A DNA stretch of 64,000 nt from Natrarchaeobius oligotrophus (lineage in GTDB: Archaea; Halobacteriota; Halobacteria; Halobacteriales; Natrialbaceae), in NCBI RefSeq assembly GCF_003841465.1, contig NZ_REFZ01000003.1, forward strand, positions 62,001 to 126,000, written 5' to 3'. The position numbers were made by a program, and so were the translations under genes. Below are positions 27,301 to 40,873 of this stretch, in pieces. Positions within the stretch are counted from its first letter, which is position 1, and every line of letters begins with the position of its first letter. The notes beneath the pieces were generated by a model, which was given only the letters and a program-made list of their open reading frames with translations, had not been told where the DNA came from and ran no database searches.

Positions 27301-27334
27301 ACTTGTGCTAATACAACAGAGGTTTAAATAATCG
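27301..27334. promoter_or_regulatory. overlapping divergent promoters of chlID and cobN
   Basis: Only 34 bp separate the two start codons. A TATTTAAAC box (27322-27330, reverse strand) is set at leaderless distance from chlID. A weaker GCTAATAC box (27307-27314) is similarly placed for cobN. The two core promoters interlock, so transcription of the two chelatase subunits may be mutually exclusive or jointly controlled at one site. Confidence 0.6.
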
Positions 27335-32881: not shown

Positions 32882-32909
32882 AGTCCAACCCTACTTCAGC
32901 AAGTGGACT
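32882..32909 (+). terminator. bulged hairpin in the cbiE-cbiT spacer
   Basis: AGTCC (32882-32886) and ACTT (32893-32896) pair with AAGTGGACT (32901-32909) around a CAGC loop, leaving a 6-nt bulge. This gives a nine-pair stem in the only sizeable spacer of the cobalamin operon. It may attenuate read-through or mark the end of the first transcript; there is no clear U-tract. Confidence 0.3.
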
Positions 32910-32934
32910 TGCCGAAATACAAACAAAATTGTTT
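32907..32934 (+). promoter_or_regulatory. candidate internal promoter of cbiT-onward operon
   Basis: An A/T-rich run (ATACAAACAAAATTGTTTTA) lies about 28-45 nt before the cbiT ATG in otherwise GC-rich DNA and offers a TATA-like box. Its start, ACTTG-N4-AATACAA (32907-32922), recurs at 27301-27316 between chlID and cobN, so the two promoter regions may share a regulator. Confidence 0.4.
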
Positions 32935-32961
32935 TACCGGCGGCGGGAGACTGGCCGGACG

Positions 32962-33534
32962 ATGTCCGCTATCGCGCTTCCACACGACGCCAAAGCGGGG
33001 CCGACCAAGCCGGAGGTGCGCTCGGTGGTGCTCGGGAAACTCGAACTCGAGCCCGCCGACCACTTCGTCGACGTCGGCTCCTGTACCGGTGCCGTGACCA
33101 TCGAGGCGGCACGCCGGGCGGGACGAGTCACCGCTATCGAACGAAAAGCCGCTCGACTCGAGGTGACGGAAAAGAACCTCGCGGCCAACGACGTCCGCGC
33201 CGAGGTCGACTGCACGAACGCGGAAGCGCCCGCCGGCATTCCGGACGGCGCGGACGCGATCTTTCTGGGCGGCAGCCGGAACTTCGAATCGGTCCTCGAC
33301 CGAGCCGTCGAAGTCGGCGCGGGACGGATCGTCATGAACGTCTCGCGACTCGAGGTGGCCGGGCGGGCGGTCGACGCGTTTCGAGACCGAGGCCTCCTCG
33401 AGGAGGTCCTTCAGGTACAGGTGAGTCGCGGCTACGAACTCGCCGGGGCGACCAGCTTCGACGCGAACAATCCGGTCTACGTCCTCGTCGGCTCGGCGGC
33501 GCGAGCCGACGGTGGAGAGGTGACCGGCCGGTGA
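32962..33534 (+). CDS. cbiT: cobalt-precorrin-6B C15-methyltransferase (decarboxylating)
   Basis: The 190-residue protein is a class I methyltransferase with DVGSCTGAVTIEAA (about residues 36-49) and an acidic residue at the end of strand 2 (AIERK), as in CbiT. It methylates C15 and removes the C12 acetate carboxyl. The ATG at 32962 gives the usual N-terminus, with T-K-P-E-V-R before the core. It follows the internal promoter and is coupled to cbiL by a 4-bp overlap. Confidence 0.92.
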   Translation: MSAIALPHDAKAGPTKPEVRSVVLGKLELEPADHFVDVGSCTGAVTIEAARRAGRVTAIERKAARLEVTEKNLAANDVRAEVDCTNAEAPAGIPDGADAIFLGGSRNFESVLDRAVEVGAGRIVMNVSRLEVAGRAVDAFRDRGLLEEVLQVQVSRGYELAGATSFDANNPVYVLVGSAARADGGEVTGR

Positions 33535-34358
33535 CGCTCTACGGCGTGGGGCTCGGTCCCGGCGACGCCGACCTCGTGACGGTTCGCGGAAAGCGCGTCC
33601 TCGAGTCGGCCGACGTGGTCTACTCGCCCGGTCGCCTCTCGAGATCGGTCGCACTCGAGCACGTCTCCGAGTCGACGATCGGGGATCTCGACTTCCCGAT
33701 GACGAGCGACGAAACGACGCTTCGGCGAGCCTGGAAGGAAGCGGCTGCGGAGGTCGCTCCTCGAGCCAGAGCGGACGACGTCGCCTTCGTCACGCTCGGC
33801 GATCCGAACGTCTACTCCACCTTCGGCCACCTCCGTCGGACGCTCGAGGCGTTCCATCCGGACGTCGACGTCGAAATCGTTCCCGGCGTCAGCGCGATGA
33901 CGGCGTTCGCGACCGCGCTGGGCGTCGAAATCGAGGCCGGGGCGGGACTGTCGCTTCGAGAAGCGGCCGGCGGCGAGAGCCCGACGGGTCCCGACAGGAT
34001 GATCCTGTTCAAAGTAACCGATGCGCCGGCGACGCACGAGGGACTCGTCGAGGCGGGCTACGACGTTCGCTACGGACGTCGGCTGTTCATGGAACACGGC
34101 GAAACGATCGTCACGGACGATCCCGCCGACCTCGCGGACCGCGATTACTACACGCTGGCGTACGCCGAGAAGCGAGACCTCGAGATCGAGTCGGCGACGG
34201 CGGCGTTTCAAACGGACGCGCCCGCTTCGGCTGCGGCGGACGCCCCTGACGGCGAACCGACCGCGACGAGCGCAGAGCGGACCGACGGCGGCGTCGCGGA
34301 TCTCGAGCGCACGGAAGCCTGCGAGGGCGGCGATTGCGGAGGACACACCGACGAATGA
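33531..34358 (+). CDS. cbiL: cobalt-precorrin-2 C20-methyltransferase
   Basis: The 275-residue enzyme starts MTLYGVGLGPGDADLVTVRG, the N-terminal motif of CbiL/CobI. VTLGDPNVYSTFGHL and IVPGVSAMTAFATALG are the second and third landmarks. It adds the C20 methyl that is later lost in ring contraction. The GTG at 33531 overlaps the cbiT stop. The C-terminus carries a non-family tail ending EACEGGDCGGHTDE, with two Cys and one His that might bind metal. Confidence 0.92.
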   Translation: MTLYGVGLGPGDADLVTVRGKRVLESADVVYSPGRLSRSVALEHVSESTIGDLDFPMTSDETTLRRAWKEAAAEVAPRARADDVAFVTLGDPNVYSTFGHLRRTLEAFHPDVDVEIVPGVSAMTAFATALGVEIEAGAGLSLREAAGGESPTGPDRMILFKVTDAPATHEGLVEAGYDVRYGRRLFMEHGETIVTDDPADLADRDYYTLAYAEKRDLEIESATAAFQTDAPASAAADAPDGEPTATSAERTDGGVADLERTEACEGGDCGGHTDE

Positions 34359-35263
34359 CGAACGCGACAGACGACGAACGACACGATCCGCAGGCGGCGA
34401 TCGACGCACAGGGTGATCGACGACGGACCGAGTTGGACGACCGAATCTTCGAGCACGCCGCGGGTGACGACCAGGAGGGAATTCCCTTCGTCGGCGCCGG
34501 ACCCGGCGATCCCGGTCTCCTGACGGTCACCGGAAAAGAGCTGCTCGAGGGGGCCGACCTGGTCGTCCACGCCGGGTCGCTCGTCAACAGCGAGCTGCTC
34601 GAGTCCTACTGCGGCGACGCCGAGTTAGTCAATTCGATCGGCAAGGACCTCGAGGAACTCGTTCCGTTGATGCACGATGCGTACGAGGACGGCCTGTCCG
34701 TGGTTCGTCTGCACAGCGGCGATCCCGCCATCTTCGGGGCGGCGCTCGAGCAGATGGACGCCCTCGAACACGAGGGCGTTCCCACCTACTTCGTGCCGGG
34801 CGTCACGTCGGCGTTCGCGGCGAGTGCGACGCTCCGGACGCAACTGACGCTCAACGAGGTCGCCAACCACGTCGCGTTCACCCGCCCGCAGGGCAAAACC
34901 TTGAGCGAAGACGAGGATCACGTCTCCGAATTCGTCGGGATGGGCGACGTGACGACCTGCATCTACCTCGGCACGCACGCCGTCCGCGACACGATGGAGC
35001 GGCTGCTCGAGGACGGCCACGATCCGACGACGCCCGTCGCGGTGGTGTACCACGCCTCCTGGCCGGACGAAGACGTCCTCGTCGGAACGATCGACTCGAT
35101 CGCCGACCAGGTCGAGGAGGCGGGCTATCGCGCCTCCGCGCTGGTCGTCGTCGGCGACGCCGTGACGGGAGCCGGATACGAGCGGTCCTACCTCTACGGC
35201 GACTGGGCGAACGGCGAACCGGAGTCGTCGGATGCGACCGAAACGGAGGCGGGTGACGACTGA
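34355..35263 (+). CDS. cbiF: cobalt-precorrin-4 C11-methyltransferase
   Basis: The 302-residue protein has a haloarchaeal acidic lead of about 45 residues, then FVGAGPGDPGLLTVTGKELL (about residues 47-66) and VHAGSLVN, both diagnostic of CbiF/CobM. The motif VRLHSGDPAIFGA follows, then VPGVTSAFAASA. It methylates C11. The start ATG overlaps the cbiL stop (ATGA), and the stop overlaps the cbiG start by one base. Confidence 0.94.
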   Translation: MTNATDDERHDPQAAIDAQGDRRRTELDDRIFEHAAGDDQEGIPFVGAGPGDPGLLTVTGKELLEGADLVVHAGSLVNSELLESYCGDAELVNSIGKDLEELVPLMHDAYEDGLSVVRLHSGDPAIFGAALEQMDALEHEGVPTYFVPGVTSAFAASATLRTQLTLNEVANHVAFTRPQGKTLSEDEDHVSEFVGMGDVTTCIYLGTHAVRDTMERLLEDGHDPTTPVAVVYHASWPDEDVLVGTIDSIADQVEEAGYRASALVVVGDAVTGAGYERSYLYGDWANGEPESSDATETEAGDD

Positions 35264-36240
35264 TGAGTACGAACGACGAGGACGCGGAGGCGGACTCGAG
35301 CGGACACTGCTCGACGCCCGACAGCGACGGAGAGGTCGCCGAGGAGATCGCGATCGTCTCCTTCGAGCGAAAGATGGAGACGGCCGAGGCGATCAGAGAG
35401 GGGATCGAGGATCGGTACGAGGCGATCGAGATCCTCGAGTACCACGGCGACGTCTTCGACGAACACTGGGGCGAGTACGACTGTTTCGTGGGCCTCATGG
35501 CTTCCGGAATCGCGATGCGCAAGACGGCACACCTGCTCGACGACAAGTGGGACGATCCCGCTATCGTCGTCGTCGACGAGGAGTTGACGTGGGCCATCCC
35601 GATCACGGGCGGCCACCACGGCGCTAACCAGGTCGCCGGCGATCTCGCCTCGCTCGGTGCGATTCCCGCGATGACCACGGCGTCGGAGGTTGCGGACAAA
35701 CAGGGCGTCGAGGCCCGCGCGAAGGCGATGGACGCCCACGTCGTCAACGGCGATTCGACGGTGCAAACGAACCTCGCCGTCCTGGACGACGAACTCGGTC
35801 CGGTCGCCCGCCTCGACGGGCCGAAAGCGGTACTGGTCGGCGACGACGTGACGGTCCTCAAACGAAACGGCGCGGACGGATGCGTGATCGGGACCGGCAG
35901 CGTCTCCGGCGCGAGCGCGGACTCGTTTCTCGCCGCCTGGTGGACGGCCCTCGAGCGAACCGAATACGATCTCGACGACGTCGAGTTCGTCGCCACGGCG
36001 ACCCGCAAAGAAGACGAGACGGGTCTCCTCGAGGCGGCCCGGGAGCTCGACCTGGGCGTCGTGGTCTTCGATAAGGAGACGCTGCTGGCCAACGAAGGGC
36101 CGACCCCGTCGCGATCGAAGGAGTTGATCGGGTGGCCGGGCGTCTCCGAGGCGGCGGCGATCGCCGGCGGTCGAGAGCGGGAACTTGTGCTCGAGAAGAT
36201 CGGGTACGAAAACGAGGTCACGGTGGCGATCGGTCGATGA
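35263..36240 (+). CDS. cbiG: cobalt-precorrin-5A hydrolase
   Basis: The 325-residue protein contains GLMASGIAMRKTAHLL (about 85-100) and ITGGHHGANQVAGDLA (about 117-132), which are CbiG N-domain signatures. The C-terminal CbiG domain (GTGSVSGASADSFLAAWWTAL to the end) is also present. It opens the delta-lactone and releases the C2 fragment in ring contraction, an anaerobic-route step. The N-terminal 25 residues are acidic and include an isolated SSGHCSTP. Confidence 0.93.
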   Translation: MSTNDEDAEADSSGHCSTPDSDGEVAEEIAIVSFERKMETAEAIREGIEDRYEAIEILEYHGDVFDEHWGEYDCFVGLMASGIAMRKTAHLLDDKWDDPAIVVVDEELTWAIPITGGHHGANQVAGDLASLGAIPAMTTASEVADKQGVEARAKAMDAHVVNGDSTVQTNLAVLDDELGPVARLDGPKAVLVGDDVTVLKRNGADGCVIGTGSVSGASADSFLAAWWTALERTEYDLDDVEFVATATRKEDETGLLEAARELDLGVVVFDKETLLANEGPTPSRSKELIGWPGVSEAAAIAGGRERELVLEKIGYENEVTVAIGR

Positions 36241-37106
36241 GTCCCGACGGTCACTCGAGCGCCGACGGGACGCCGGACGACCACGGCACGCTCTTCGTCG
36301 TCGGGATCGGCCCCGGCTTGCCCGACCACACGACCGCGAACGCAAAGCGGGTTATCGAGTCCGCCGACGTCGTCATCGCCTCGAGTCTCTACCAGACCTT
36401 CCTGCGGGAGGACGGAACCCTGCCGCCCGAAGACGCGGTCGACGAGAACGGCGTCGTCACTCGCGACGATGGATCCGAACAGGAGATCGTCCGTTCGACG
36501 ATGGGCCGACAGATCGAGCTGGCGAGGCTCGCGTTCGATCGGGTTCGGGACGGACGGGACGTCGCCCACGTCTCCGGTGGCGACCCGTCGGTTTACGGGA
36601 AATCCGACCTCATCTTCACGATGGCCGAGGAGGAAGATGCGACCGACGTCCCGATCGAGATCGTTCCCGGTCTCACCGCCGCCCTCGGCGGCGCGGCGAA
36701 CGTCGGCGCGCCGCTGTGTAACGACTTCTGTACCGTCTCGCTGTCGGACAAGTGGCGGGGCTGGGACGAGATCGAAGAGAAGCTGCGAGCGGCGGCGATC
36801 GCCGACTTCGTGATCGTCCTCTACAACTGTTGGCGCAACTACGAGGAGGCCGTCGAGATCGTTCGCCAGGAGCGGACCGACGACGCGCCGGTCGCCATCG
36901 TCAACGACGCCGGCCGCGCCGACGCCGGTCGCAACGGCGAGAGCGAGTTCCTCACCACCCTCGCCGAGGCGGCCGAGCACGACGAGAAAGTGTCCGGGAT
37001 GGGAACCTCGCTCATCATCGGCACCCACGAGACGAAAACCTGGAGCAACGACGATCGAACGTACCTCGTCACCCCGCGCGGCGGGCGTGACGTCGACAAC
37101 TTCTGA
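36237..37106 (+). CDS. cbiH: cobalt-precorrin-3B C17-methyltransferase (copy 1)
   Basis: The 289-residue tetrapyrrole methylase has VVGIGPGLPDHTTANAKRVI (about residues 21-40), HVSGGDPSVYGKSDLIF and IVPGLTAALGGAANVGAPL. The C-terminal half (RTYLVTPRGGRDV) fits CbiH/CobJ, which methylates C17 and triggers ring contraction. A second CbiH-like gene follows directly, as in other haloarchaeal cobalamin clusters; which of the two catalyses the C17 step cannot be decided here. It overlaps cbiG by 4 bp. Confidence 0.85.
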   Translation: MSPDGHSSADGTPDDHGTLFVVGIGPGLPDHTTANAKRVIESADVVIASSLYQTFLREDGTLPPEDAVDENGVVTRDDGSEQEIVRSTMGRQIELARLAFDRVRDGRDVAHVSGGDPSVYGKSDLIFTMAEEEDATDVPIEIVPGLTAALGGAANVGAPLCNDFCTVSLSDKWRGWDEIEEKLRAAAIADFVIVLYNCWRNYEEAVEIVRQERTDDAPVAIVNDAGRADAGRNGESEFLTTLAEAAEHDEKVSGMGTSLIIGTHETKTWSNDDRTYLVTPRGGRDVDNF

Positions 37107-37110
37107 GCGC

Positions 37111-38196
37111 ATGAACACCGATACCACCGAAGACGCTGAATCGAAATGCGGTGCCTCGACGACCGACTCGAAGTGCGGCGGTTCGTCGACGGACGAGACG
37201 ACCGACTCGAAGTGCGGCGGTTCGTCGACGGACGAGACGACCGACTCGAAGGCGGACTCGAAGTGCGGCGGTTCGTCGACGGACGAGACGAACGAGACGA
37301 AGTGCGGAGACTCCGCTTCGTCGTCCGCAAGTTCGAGTTCACGCACCACGTCTGGTGCGTCCGAGAGCAAGCGCGACTCCGTCGAGGAGCGCGTCGGCGC
37401 GACGGTCGCCGACTTCGACGGCGACGCCGGCACGCTGATGGCCGTCGGTCTCGGCCCCGGCCACCCCGAAGGGATGACTCGTCGAGCCAGAGAGGCGTTG
37501 CTCGAGGCCGAACACATCGTCGGCTACACGACGTACGTCGAGCTGTTACCCGACGAGATCACCGACCAGGCCGAGGAGCTCTACGACACGCCGATGTGCG
37601 GAGAGGTTTCTCGAACCGAGGAGGCGATCGATCGGACGCTGGCGGGAAACGACGTCGCGATCATCGGCAGCGGTGATCCGAACGTCTACGCGCTCGCCGG
37701 ACTGGCGCTCGAGATCCTCGAGTCGAAAGGAGCGACGGCGTCGATGGTCGACTTCGAGGTGATCCCGGGCGTTCCGGCCGCACAGTCCTGTGGTGCCCGG
37801 CTGGGTGCCCCGCTGGTCAACGACACGGTCTCGATCTCGCTTTCGGACCACCTGGTGGCGATGCCCGAGATCGAGTCCCGTCTGCACGCCGCGGCGAAGG
37901 AGAACTTCACGATCACGATCTACAATCCCTGGAGCCGAAAGCGCAGGGAGAACTTCGAGAAGTGCTGTGAGATCCTCCTGACTCACCGCGAGCCGACCAC
38001 GCCGGTCGGTATCGTCCACGCCGCCGGTCGCGAGGACGAAGACGTGATGATCACGACGTTATCGGAACTCGAGGATCTCGGCGAGAGCGAGATCGTCGAC
38101 ATGACGACGACGATCGTCGTCGGCAACGAGGAAACGTACGTCTGGGACGACCGGATGGTCACCCCGCGGGGGTACGAGACGAAATACGACTACTGA
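37111..38196 (+). CDS. cbiH: CbiH-like methyltransferase (copy 2) with Cys-repeat N-terminus
   Basis: The 361-residue protein has a catalytic part from about residue 105 (AVGLGPGHPEGMTRRAREAL, IGSGDPNVYALAGLAL, VIPGVPAAQSCGARLGAPL, MVTPRGYETKY). In front is an extension with five (S/T)KCG units; their cysteines are at 13, 22, 35, 52 and 65. The middle units are SKCGGSSTDETTD and near-copies, encoded by a 39-bp tandem DNA repeat. Such an arm could carry cobalt or an iron-sulfur cluster. The ATG at 37111, 4 nt after the previous stop, is well supported. Confidence 0.88.
   Translation: MNTDTTEDAESKCGASTTDSKCGGSSTDETTDSKCGGSSTDETTDSKADSKCGGSSTDETNETKCGDSASSSASSSSRTTSGASESKRDSVEERVGATVADFDGDAGTLMAVGLGPGHPEGMTRRAREALLEAEHIVGYTTYVELLPDEITDQAEELYDTPMCGEVSRTEEAIDRTLAGNDVAIIGSGDPNVYALAGLALEILESKGATASMVDFEVIPGVPAAQSCGARLGAPLVNDTVSISLSDHLVAMPEIESRLHAAAKENFTITIYNPWSRKRRENFEKCCEILLTHREPTTPVGIVHAAGREDEDVMITTLSELEDLGESEIVDMTTTIVVGNEETYVWDDRMVTPRGYETKYDY
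37163..37320 (+). repeat. 39-bp tandem repeat inside cbiH copy 2
   Basis: The unit GACTCGAAGTGCGGCGGTTC plus the following GTCGACGGACGAGAC part occurs three times almost unchanged (near 37164, 37203 and 37254), with partial units on either side. It encodes the KCGGSSTDET arm and can expand or contract in frame. Confidence 0.75.
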
Positions 38197-38233: not shown

Positions 38234-38500
38234 ATGCCACGATACGAAGTGACGATCGAAACGGACGCTTGCGACGGTATCTTCGCCTGTTTGACCCGCG
38301 ATCCGCGGTTCGTCGAAGGGGCGGACGGTCTCGCCACGATCGACCCCGACGGCGATCCGATCTACGACGGCGACGGAACGGTAACCGACGCCGACGGGCG
38401 CGTCGTCGCGACGTTCGACGACGATCGAATCGACGACGCGAAACGAGCAGCAGCCGCCTGCCCGACGGACGCGATCCTCGTCCGGGAGGTCGGCGAATGA
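38234..38500 (+). CDS. small ferredoxin
   Basis: The 88-residue protein has a C-x5-C spacing near the N-terminus (ACDGIFACLT, Cys13 and Cys19) and a late ACPTDAI motif (Cys near 77). This gives three well-placed cysteines, which fits a [3Fe-4S] or modified [4Fe-4S] single-cluster ferredoxin. An acidic loop lies between. Inside the cobalamin operon it probably supplies electrons for a corrin-ring reduction or for cobalt reduction. It is coupled to the next gene by a 4-bp overlap. Confidence 0.8.
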   Translation: MPRYEVTIETDACDGIFACLTRDPRFVEGADGLATIDPDGDPIYDGDGTVTDADGRVVATFDDDRIDDAKRAAAACPTDAILVREVGE

Positions 38501-39207
38501 CCGAGCGGACGTCGGAGACGTCCGTCGCGTCCGGCGGCGAACGCGAACTCGAGGTGCCGGCCGACCCGGTGGCGGCACATCCCGCGTCGGCGTACTTCTG
38601 GGGACACGTCGCCGGTAGCGGAACGGTCGCGGACGACGGCATCGAAGTCGTGACCGCCGACGAGCGATCGGCGACGGTGCTCGCGGCCATCGCCGGCGGC
38701 GAGATCGAGCACGAGGCGTCGAGCCGACCGTACGTCCACGACACCTCGATCACGCGCACCGAGGACGAGTACGCGCTCACGATCGACGCCGACGAAGGCG
38801 GGCTGCTCGGTCGGACGACCGCGCTCGGCTTGCCGGTCGACGGTCGCGGAAACTACCGGTTTACCGCGTTCGCTGAACACGAACGCGAACTCCTCCGCGG
38901 ACTGTTCGAGGGCTGTGGAACGATCTGTTACAAATCGAGCAGCGAAACGGTCGGGATCTCGTTCGTCCACGAGGACGAGGCGCTCCTCTCGACCGTTCTC
39001 GACCTGCTCGCGGACGCTCCCGTCGAGGCGCCGACCGGTTCCCTCTCGGAGACGGCTTCGGGCGGGTACTGGTTCGGCGTCGACGACGACGCGGCACCCG
39101 ACGTCGGGAGCTGGCTGTACGAGACGTGCGAGGAAACCGGCCTGTACGCGCCGAGCCGACGGCGAAAACTCGAGCGGAGTCTGGAACGGGCCGACGACGC
39201 CGACTGA
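38497..39207 (+). CDS. cobalamin-cluster protein with degenerate LAGLIDADG-like motifs
   Basis: The 236-residue protein of unknown function is locked into the operon (ATGA overlap with the ferredoxin gene). Two segments about 105 residues apart, AYFWGHVAGSGTV (near residue 32) and LLRGLFEGCGTI (near 137), look like the paired LAGLIDADG helices of homing endonucleases. The catalytic acidic residue is replaced by Ser and Cys. A non-cleaving, DNA- or ligand-binding descendant is possible, as in WhiA. It may instead fill a missing corrin step. The resemblance is by eye only. Confidence 0.75.
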   Translation: MTERTSETSVASGGERELEVPADPVAAHPASAYFWGHVAGSGTVADDGIEVVTADERSATVLAAIAGGEIEHEASSRPYVHDTSITRTEDEYALTIDADEGGLLGRTTALGLPVDGRGNYRFTAFAEHERELLRGLFEGCGTICYKSSSETVGISFVHEDEALLSTVLDLLADAPVEAPTGSLSETASGGYWFGVDDDAAPDVGSWLYETCEETGLYAPSRRRKLERSLERADDAD

Positions 39208-39260: not shown

Positions 39261-40481
39261 ATGCATCACACGACCGACGCCACGCCGTCGTTCGACGACG
39301 AAGCCATCCTGCTCGTCGGCCACGGATCCCGTCGCGAACGATCGAACGAGCAAGTTCGCGAACTGGCGGCCGGCCTCGAGTCGCGCCTCGAGATACCGGT
39401 CGACGCGGCGTTTCTCGAGTTAGCGCAGCCATCGCTCGAGGACGCGTTCGACGACCTCTCGAGCGTCACGGAAACGGTCACGGTCGTTCACTGCTCGCTG
39501 TTCGCAGCGAGTCACGTCAAAAACGACGTGCCGCTCGCGATCGAACGCGCGCGGGCGCAATTCGACCTCGAGATCCACGCCGGCGCTCACCTCGGAATCC
39601 ATCCCGCGATCGTCGACCTCCTCGACGATCGGGCGGCAGCCGTCGAGCGATCGCTCGGCGTCGACCGGGAGCGAGACGACGTCGCCGTCGTCCTGTGTGC
39701 CCGCGGCTCGAGCGACCCGGACGCCAACGCGGACGTCCACAAGCTCGCTCGACTGTTCTACGAAGGGCGGCCGTTCTCGCGGGTCGAGGCGTCGTTCGTC
39801 GGCGTCACCGAACCGGTACTCGAAGCGAGCTTACACGCCGTGGCCAAACATCGGCCCGACGCAGTCGTCGTCCTCCCGTACATGCTGGGTGACGGCGTCC
39901 TTACCCGGCGAGTTCGGGAGTGGACCGACGAGTTCGACGCGGACTATCCGTACGTCGATGCGGCCGCGGGCGATCCCCTGGGGACGGACTCGCGGTTGCT
40001 CGACGCGTTCGCAGACCGGTGGCAAGAAGCGCGGTCGGGGAGCGTCGAGATGTCCTGTGATACCTGCAAGTACAAGGTCGATCTGACGGGGTACGAGGAG
40101 GACGTCGGTGGCGCGCGCGCGATGCTGCGAGCGCTGTCACACCAGGGCGCACACGCAGACCGGGAGAACGTCGACGACGAACCCCACTCGCACGACGGGC
40201 CGGAAAAACACGTCGCCGTCTGCACGAACCGAACCTGTGCGAACGCGGGCTCGCCGGCCGTCCTCGAGCGGTTGCGACAGGCAACTCGCGACGGCGACCG
40301 CCGTGACGTCCGCATTACGCGGTCGTCGTGTCTCGGTCGCTGTGGCGACGGGCCGATGGTCGCCGTCTATCCCGACGGGATCTGGTACGGCGACGTCGAT
40401 CAGTCGGACGCAGAACGTATCGTTTCGTCCCACCTCGAGCGGGACCGCATCGTGAGCGACATCGTCGATCGAACGCTCTAA
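39261..40481 (+). CDS. cbiX: CbiX-type chelatase fused to thioredoxin-like [2Fe-2S] domain
   Basis: The 406-residue protein has two CbiX/SirB half-domains (AILLVGHGSRRERSN, about residues 15-29, and VAVVLCARGSSDPDAN, about 143-158), which carry the metal-binding His in the first. It then has a DTCKYKVDLTGYE cysteine pair and a C-terminal thioredoxin-like ferredoxin domain with VCTNRTC...SSCLGRC (about 315-355). It would insert cobalt early, into sirohydrochlorin. Its coexistence with CobN/ChlID gives the operon both early and late chelatases. The ATG at 39261 was chosen by homology-like start. Confidence 0.92.
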   Translation: MHHTTDATPSFDDEAILLVGHGSRRERSNEQVRELAAGLESRLEIPVDAAFLELAQPSLEDAFDDLSSVTETVTVVHCSLFAASHVKNDVPLAIERARAQFDLEIHAGAHLGIHPAIVDLLDDRAAAVERSLGVDRERDDVAVVLCARGSSDPDANADVHKLARLFYEGRPFSRVEASFVGVTEPVLEASLHAVAKHRPDAVVVLPYMLGDGVLTRRVREWTDEFDADYPYVDAAAGDPLGTDSRLLDAFADRWQEARSGSVEMSCDTCKYKVDLTGYEEDVGGARAMLRALSHQGAHADRENVDDEPHSHDGPEKHVAVCTNRTCANAGSPAVLERLRQATRDGDRRDVRITRSSCLGRCGDGPMVAVYPDGIWYGDVDQSDAERIVSSHLERDRIVSDIVDRTL

Positions 40482-40504: not shown

Positions 40505-40873
40505 ATGAGCTGTTACGAACTCGAAGCACTGAAACTCGGACTGTTGAACGTCCTCGGAACCGCCGATCGAAGCGCCCGCGAACACGCCGAAACCGAACTC
40601 GAGGGACACCTCGACGGACCGATCGGCGCGCTCGCGGCGGCCGACTCCCTCGCGGAGATCGAACGTCACCTCGACGCGGCGCTGGTCGACCTGGAGGAAG
40701 ACGTCGCGGCGATGAGCGCGGACGATCCCGAATACGGCTACACCCGCGGTCGGTTACTGGCCGTCAGAGACGCGGAGCGAGCCGTCCATCGACTCACCGC
40801 CCAGGGAGAAAGCATCCTCGACGGTCTCGACGATGCACACGACCTGTTGCACGAAACGTTCCCGGACGAATGA
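40505..40873 (+). CDS. DUF3209 protein
   Basis: The 122-residue, all-helical acidic protein starts MSCYELEALKLGLLNVLGT, the hallmark of DUF3209, a family that travels with archaeal cobalamin genes. Function is unknown. A GY-rich central loop (DDPEYGYTRGR) splits two helical halves. It is coupled to the next gene by a 4-bp overlap. Confidence 0.85.
   Translation: MSCYELEALKLGLLNVLGTADRSAREHAETELEGHLDGPIGALAAADSLAEIERHLDAALVDLEEDVAAMSADDPEYGYTRGRLLAVRDAERAVHRLTAQGESILDGLDDAHDLLHETFPDE

Follow-up and report, generated by a model that had tools for sequence, protein, structure and literature searches.

A nuclease-dead LAGLIDADG-fold protein as a candidate accessory factor of cobalt-early cobalamin synthesis in haloarchaea

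What is a protein with two LAGLIDADG-like motifs doing in a cobalamin operon? The question is raised by a gene in a 64,000-nucleotide stretch of DNA from the haloarchaeon Natrarchaeobius oligotrophus (NZ_REFZ01000003.1, positions 62,001 to 126,000; hereafter the window, in whose numbering all positions are given), which the initial annotation, made from the sequence, had read as an inactivated homing endonuclease recruited to metabolism or regulation. The gene, labelled LAG here (38497-39207, + strand), encodes a protein of 236 aa with a predicted two-domain LAGLIDADG fold that is in all likelihood nuclease-dead; its start, its stop and both motifs were verified in the window sequence. Upstream in the same operon lie the cobalt-early corrin genes cbiT-cbiL-cbiF-cbiG-cbiH1-cbiH2 (32962-38196, + strand) and, directly 5' of LAG, a gene for a ferredoxin with three conserved Cys (C-x5-C ... 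C-P; 38234-38500, + strand), which matches the family PF13459 Fer4_15 with an E-value of 8e-15. The ferredoxin stop and the LAG start overlap as ATGA, and this overlap is kept in 67 of 71 orthologous loci, in agreement with the translational coupling proposed earlier. On the 3' side, LAG is followed by genes for the sirohydrochlorin cobaltochelatase CbiX, which has an MSCDTC motif and a thioredoxin-like [2Fe-2S] tail (39261-40481, + strand), for a DUF3209 protein (40505-40873, + strand) and for a PQQ-like beta-propeller protein. The 71 loci were taken from a scan of our collection, and residue counts were made over 72 members; the order cbiH2-ferredoxin-LAG-cbiX-DUF3209 is kept across these loci, within reach of each contig.

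To judge by its gene neighbourhood and by published locus numbers, the window gene is probably the ortholog of HVO_B0055 of Haloferax volcanii, in which HVO_B0056 is the ferredoxin and HVO_B0054 is CbiX1. HVO_B0055 and HVO_B0056 have been described as unassigned cluster genes and as candidates for the gaps in the pathway (Pfeiffer et al., 2021; PMC8305020). HVO_B0055, placed here from the published locus order, and the PGAP 'cobalamin biosynthesis protein', which was read directly, share the cob-cluster slot between ferredoxin and cbiX, but these annotations name neither a fold nor a function. Literature searches on HVO_B0055, on DUF3209 and on LAGLIDADG together with cobalamin, largely in the freely accessible part, returned no earlier statement of a LAGLIDADG fold or origin.

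Comparison of a predicted structure with LAGLIDADG folds had been suggested as the critical test of the assignment. The AlphaFold model of LAG, calculated from the ortholog alignment (pLDDT 87.6, pTM 0.85), consists of two alpha-beta-beta-alpha-beta-beta units, i.e., the LAGLIDADG fold, and ends after the second of these domains and a C-terminal helix. A Foldseek search of the PDB placed full-length WhiA at the top (E 8.8e-6) and listed nothing but LAGLIDADG proteins in its first 39 rows. VIA-align, in which Z differences within 1 count as ties, aligned 181 residues of the model with Streptomyces WhiA (Z 15.1, rmsd 3.2) and gave a Z of 14 or more for each of PI-PfuI, I-Tsp061I and I-DmoI. At the sequence level, a profile of the LAG family aligned with 30 haloarchaeal intein endonuclease segments over 230 columns (hhalign, E 8.3e-7, probability 84%), with both LAGLIDADG motifs in register. 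The top Pfam family was PF14528 LAGLIDADG_3, matched by 20 of 35 LAG members with a best E of 2.5e-4; the match of the window protein itself is weak (E 0.039) and lies under the curated cut-off. Single-sequence and profile searches of solved structures gave chance matches only and no LAGLIDADG protein, no NCBIfam family matches LAG, and no HTH family was found in it. Domains 1 and 2 have no detectable similarity in an hhalign internal-repeat test, so that the pseudo-twofold of LAG is read solely from the structure. The structural matches and the profile match to inteins together support homology of LAG to homing endonucleases, and the motifs are no product of chance. The description of LAG as a single-chain LAGLIDADG-like protein thus holds: the predicted fold is paired, each clear structural match is to a LAGLIDADG protein, and WhiA ranks with the nearest of the solved structures.

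Motif 1 (residues 32-44, AYFWGHVAGSGTV; 38590-38628, + strand) carries a Ser at the acid position. Motif 2 proper comprises residues 132-143 (LLRGLFEGCGTI); together with the following residue (132-144, LLRGLFEGCGTIC; 38890-38928, + strand) it contains two cysteines, C140, which replaces the acid, and C144. The motifs are as described in the initial annotation, except that their starts are 100 and not 105 residues apart. Position 140 is Cys in 71 of the 72 members and Ser in the remaining one, the ortholog at locus L044, which keeps the second Cys. Four residues further on, C144 is invariant (72/72). At the acid position of motif 1 (residue 41) the 72 members have S (51), D (10), G (9), A (1) or N (1), which amounts to S/G/A/N in 62 of them. 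On the family tree, several haloarchaeal groups have Asp at this position, which implies a loss, or a regain, of the motif 1 acid inside the LAG family. Of the two proposed replacements of catalytic acids, the Cys is therefore a near-invariant feature of the family, whereas the Ser is a lineage state and 10 of 72 members keep the Asp.

When the diverged members from genomes G021, G183 and G014 are added, A32, Y33, W35, G36, H81, R134, G135, E138, G141, C144, G153, S155, Y208, R221 and K224 are still invariant, and the most distant, unlinked member keeps H81, R134, E138, C144, G153 and S155. From known LAGLIDADG structures we expect residues 142, 144, 146, 153 and 155 to face the groove, and the C140/C144 pair would then sit on the floor of the saddle. 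The strand residues under conservation cluster on one side of the saddle. Together, the Cys pair and the small residues that never vary would resemble one binding site, located in domain 2, and not a two-sided DNA-reading surface. The net charge per residue of LAG is -0.107, like that of the operon enzymes, compared with -0.060 in haloarchaeal intein endonucleases.

LAG was found in 146 of the 292 Halobacteria genomes sampled, and each of these 146 also has cbiG, which is present in 151 of the 292; five cbiG genomes are without LAG. The gene is single copy per genome and nearly always located within the cob cluster. Its dN/dS in close pairs is 0.08-0.33, which indicates purifying selection, and its pairwise distances follow those of the operon genes (Spearman 0.89 for ferredoxin, 0.87 for cbiH1, 0.86 for CbiX). 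In the 71 loci it occupies a fixed operon slot and is carried by neither an intron nor an intein. Among 247 phylum-level genomes there was no convincing relative outside Halobacteria (best outside match E 0.04), and no match to LAG was found in phages. Operon linkage and co-occurrence with cbi genes, by which pathway membership was tested, both place LAG in the cobalt-early pathway, and we are confident that it is a component of cobalt-early B12 synthesis. In G021, a diverged copy lies outside the cbi cluster (L092:11825-12421, - strand). As judged by reading the sequences, one neighbour of this copy is a rhodanese-like gene, the other resembles a cation-diffusion-facilitator transporter gene, and a second such gene comes next along.

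The cbi clusters without LAG differ in their chelatase. In G001, G007, G129 and G269, cbiG is present and the cluster lacks LAG, ferredoxin, DUF3209 and the propeller gene; CbiX has a His-rich tail in place of the [2Fe-2S] tail. G512, a third member of the G001 genus, shows the same pattern as G001, with no LAG and a His-tailed CbiX. G052, by contrast, lacks LAG and keeps the ferredoxin and the Fe-S-tailed CbiX. Here a second, His-tailed CbiX (L089:12203-13144) occupies the LAG slot between ferredoxin and CbiX, a natural replacement; four congeners of G052 have LAG in that slot. His-tailed CbiX thus occurs in 6 of 6 cbi clusters without LAG and in none of about 82 clusters with LAG, a number that includes some species twice, from two collections. 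Apart from G052, those clusters without LAG that were placed on a tree form one clade (support 0.997), so that the mutual exclusion of LAG and His-tailed CbiX rests on few independent events. For the His-rich extension of Bacillus CbiXL, a role in metal storage and delivery has been proposed (reviewed in PMC7689651). Taken with this proposal, the exclusion ties LAG to cobalt supply or insertion.

Four other readings of the gene have to be weighed against these data. It is very improbable that LAG is an active or recently stranded homing endonuclease. LAG has the fold, the motif spacing and the profile match in common with I-DmoI, I-Tsp061I, PI-PfuI and the haloarchaeal inteins, and 10 of 72 orthologs retain the motif 1 Asp, but it differs from these enzymes in the Cys at the motif 2 acid position in 71 of 72 members and in its vertical, operon-bound inheritance as a single-copy gene under purifying selection, outside any intron or intein and with no phage match. 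On motif 2 and inheritance we reject this reading; LAG is almost certainly a domesticated, nuclease-dead LAGLIDADG protein, and the recruitment of such a protein to the corrin operon in the manner of WhiA, as originally proposed, is supported by the paired fold and the WhiA match. The kinship with WhiA, a Gram-positive transcription factor (DUF199), could also point to a redox- or B12-responsive regulator that acts with the ferredoxin at cob promoters in the manner of WhiA and WhiB, which we consider unlikely. Like LAG, WhiA is a chromosomal, domesticated protein with a degenerate two-domain LAGLIDADG fold and is among the closest solved structures; in actinomycetes it works with the Fe-S protein WhiB, and LAG is encoded beside a ferredoxin. 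In Streptomyces, WhiA and WhiB bind promoters co-dependently (PMC6282962), which offers a parallel. However, DNA binding by WhiA is done by a C-terminal HTH that LAG does not have, and the WhiA LAGLIDADG domain alone was reported not to bind DNA (PMC6282962), although a modelling study of mycoplasma WhiA disagrees (PMC11701221). LAG also differs from WhiA in its metabolic operon, in the Cys pair in motif 2 and in its restriction, in these searches, to haloarchaea. The enzyme-like net charge and the gathering of conserved strand residues in one half of the saddle speak against a regulator as well. In favour of one, a conserved promoter element with CAA-N6-TTG repeats lies 5' of cbiT (32885-32935, no strand assigned), and a related half element precedes cobN (27303-27316). 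The cbiT element has the pattern TA-N3-CAA-N6-TTG-N-TTT, to which the window copy has one mismatch, often with further CAA-N6-TTG copies, and is found about 47 bases before cbiT; across haloarchaea, a longer form, CAA-N6-TTG-N8-CAA-N6-TTG-TTTT, is seen before cbiT. Of 66 clusters with LAG, 62 have the element, as do 6 of 6 without LAG. Its occurrence irrespective of LAG disfavours LAG as its reader and makes another regulator the simpler explanation; the element looks like an operator for a cob regulator other than LAG. The suggestion that LAG acts at the motifs at 27301 and 32907 is accordingly not supported, and of the two destinations initially offered, metabolism or regulation, metabolism fits better.

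Within metabolism, LAG, alone or with the ferredoxin, might be the missing cobalt-precorrin-5B methyltransferase or cobalt-precorrin-6A reductase, which we regard as distinctly improbable. None of the 292 haloarchaeal genomes gave a match to CbiD, or one above cut-off to CbiJ, in agreement with the two gaps described for the Haloferax pathway (PMC8305020); HVO_B0055 and HVO_B0056 were named there as gap candidates, and the ferredoxin could supply electrons. Against this, the fold of LAG is unlike known methyltransferases or reductases, and CbiD and CbiJ are likewise missing from G001, G007, G129 and G269, genomes that are without LAG, ferredoxin and DUF3209 and keep cbiL-F-G-H1-H2-X. Indeed, all five LAG-less genomes among the 151 with cbiG are without CbiD and CbiJ matches above cut-off. 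The same gaps occur where LAG and ferredoxin are absent from the cluster, which makes these two proteins less likely gap fillers. On this ground LAG is disfavoured as a replacement for CbiD or CbiJ, and it probably corresponds to neither of the two missing enzymes of cobalamin synthesis. A further reading, which we also hold to be unlikely, takes ferredoxin, LAG, the Fe-S tail of CbiX, DUF3209 and the beta-propeller protein as a module through which aerobes can run the oxygen-sensitive cobalt-early pathway, in which case LAG would protect or re-reduce an intermediate or cobalt. COX1 is missing from only 4 of the 292 genomes (G001, G007, G093 and G129). The three of these that have cbiG all lack the module, and LAG is present in 146 of the 148 cbiG genomes that have COX1. 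However, the COX1-less genomes belong to one cbi clade and so represent little more than a single evolutionary event, and LAG is missing from two COX1-positive genomes, G269 and G052. The cbi cluster of COX1-positive G269 (L091) groups with those of COX1-less genomes, which suggests transfer of the whole cluster.

The explanation that we prefer is that haloarchaea have taken a catalytically dead homing-endonuclease scaffold permanently into cobalt-early B12 synthesis as an accessory factor. LAG would most likely be a protein partner, neither a nuclease nor a local DNA-binding regulator, and would act with its coupled ferredoxin at the point where cobalt is supplied and inserted by CbiX, or close to it. 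This part of the reading, drawn from genomics, is tentative, and we give it somewhat less than an even chance. In homing enzymes, a metal ion is held by acids at the saddle centre. In LAG, the centre would instead carry the pair C140 and C144, lined by the small, invariant G153 and S155, and this pair may bind a metal, the tetrapyrrole, or a partner of Fe-S or redox type. That a homing-endonuclease fold has in this way become a cobalt- or redox-handling protein, its Mg2+ acid site turned into a thiolate site that serves tetrapyrrole metalation with the ferredoxin, is a more doubtful proposition. That LAG partners ferredoxin and CbiX, and that its Cys pair serves a metal or redox purpose, is inferred; counter to the preferred explanation, G052 retains the ferredoxin without LAG, and the aerobic-type genomes G052 and G269 both live without LAG. 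Cobalt supply beside the chelatase has likewise been suggested for CobW, which holds Co(II) through a Cys motif, and for the His-rich tail of CbiXL (PMC7689651); for LAG such a role is proposed from genomics only, its fold is unrelated to theirs and it has no GTPase domain.

Domesticated LAGLIDADG proteins are, to our knowledge, few (WhiA, yeast HO and the maturases), and all those we know of act on nucleic acid or transcription. LAG differs from them in that it lies in a metabolic operon and is widespread across a whole class. Metabolism seems to have taken a parasitic gene into its service. Were the conversion to a cobalt- or redox-handling protein true, LAG would be a member of the LAGLIDADG group whose action on nucleic acid has been lost. 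LAG probably accounts for one of the four cob-cluster genes that lack an assigned function in the genetically tractable H. volcanii, and its probable exclusion narrows the open question of the two missing cobalamin enzymes.

In Leptospira, an Fe-S-tailed CbiX is followed by DUF3209 with no LAG adjoining, which indicates that this type of CbiX can do without LAG. The CbiX-DUF3209 pair is accordingly older or more widespread than LAG, which, with its ferredoxin, looks like an addition made to the pair in haloarchaea. The Leptospira DUF3209 gene is preceded by that of the Fe-S-tailed CbiX, and genes for an FAD oxidoreductase and CbiD come next. The haloarchaeal DUF3209 protein gave a confident helical AlphaFold model, has a solved relative in TTHB059 (2ehw, E 1.4e-14) and carries invariant C3, H27, H55, H112 and H116; it could plausibly be a partner of CbiX that binds metal.
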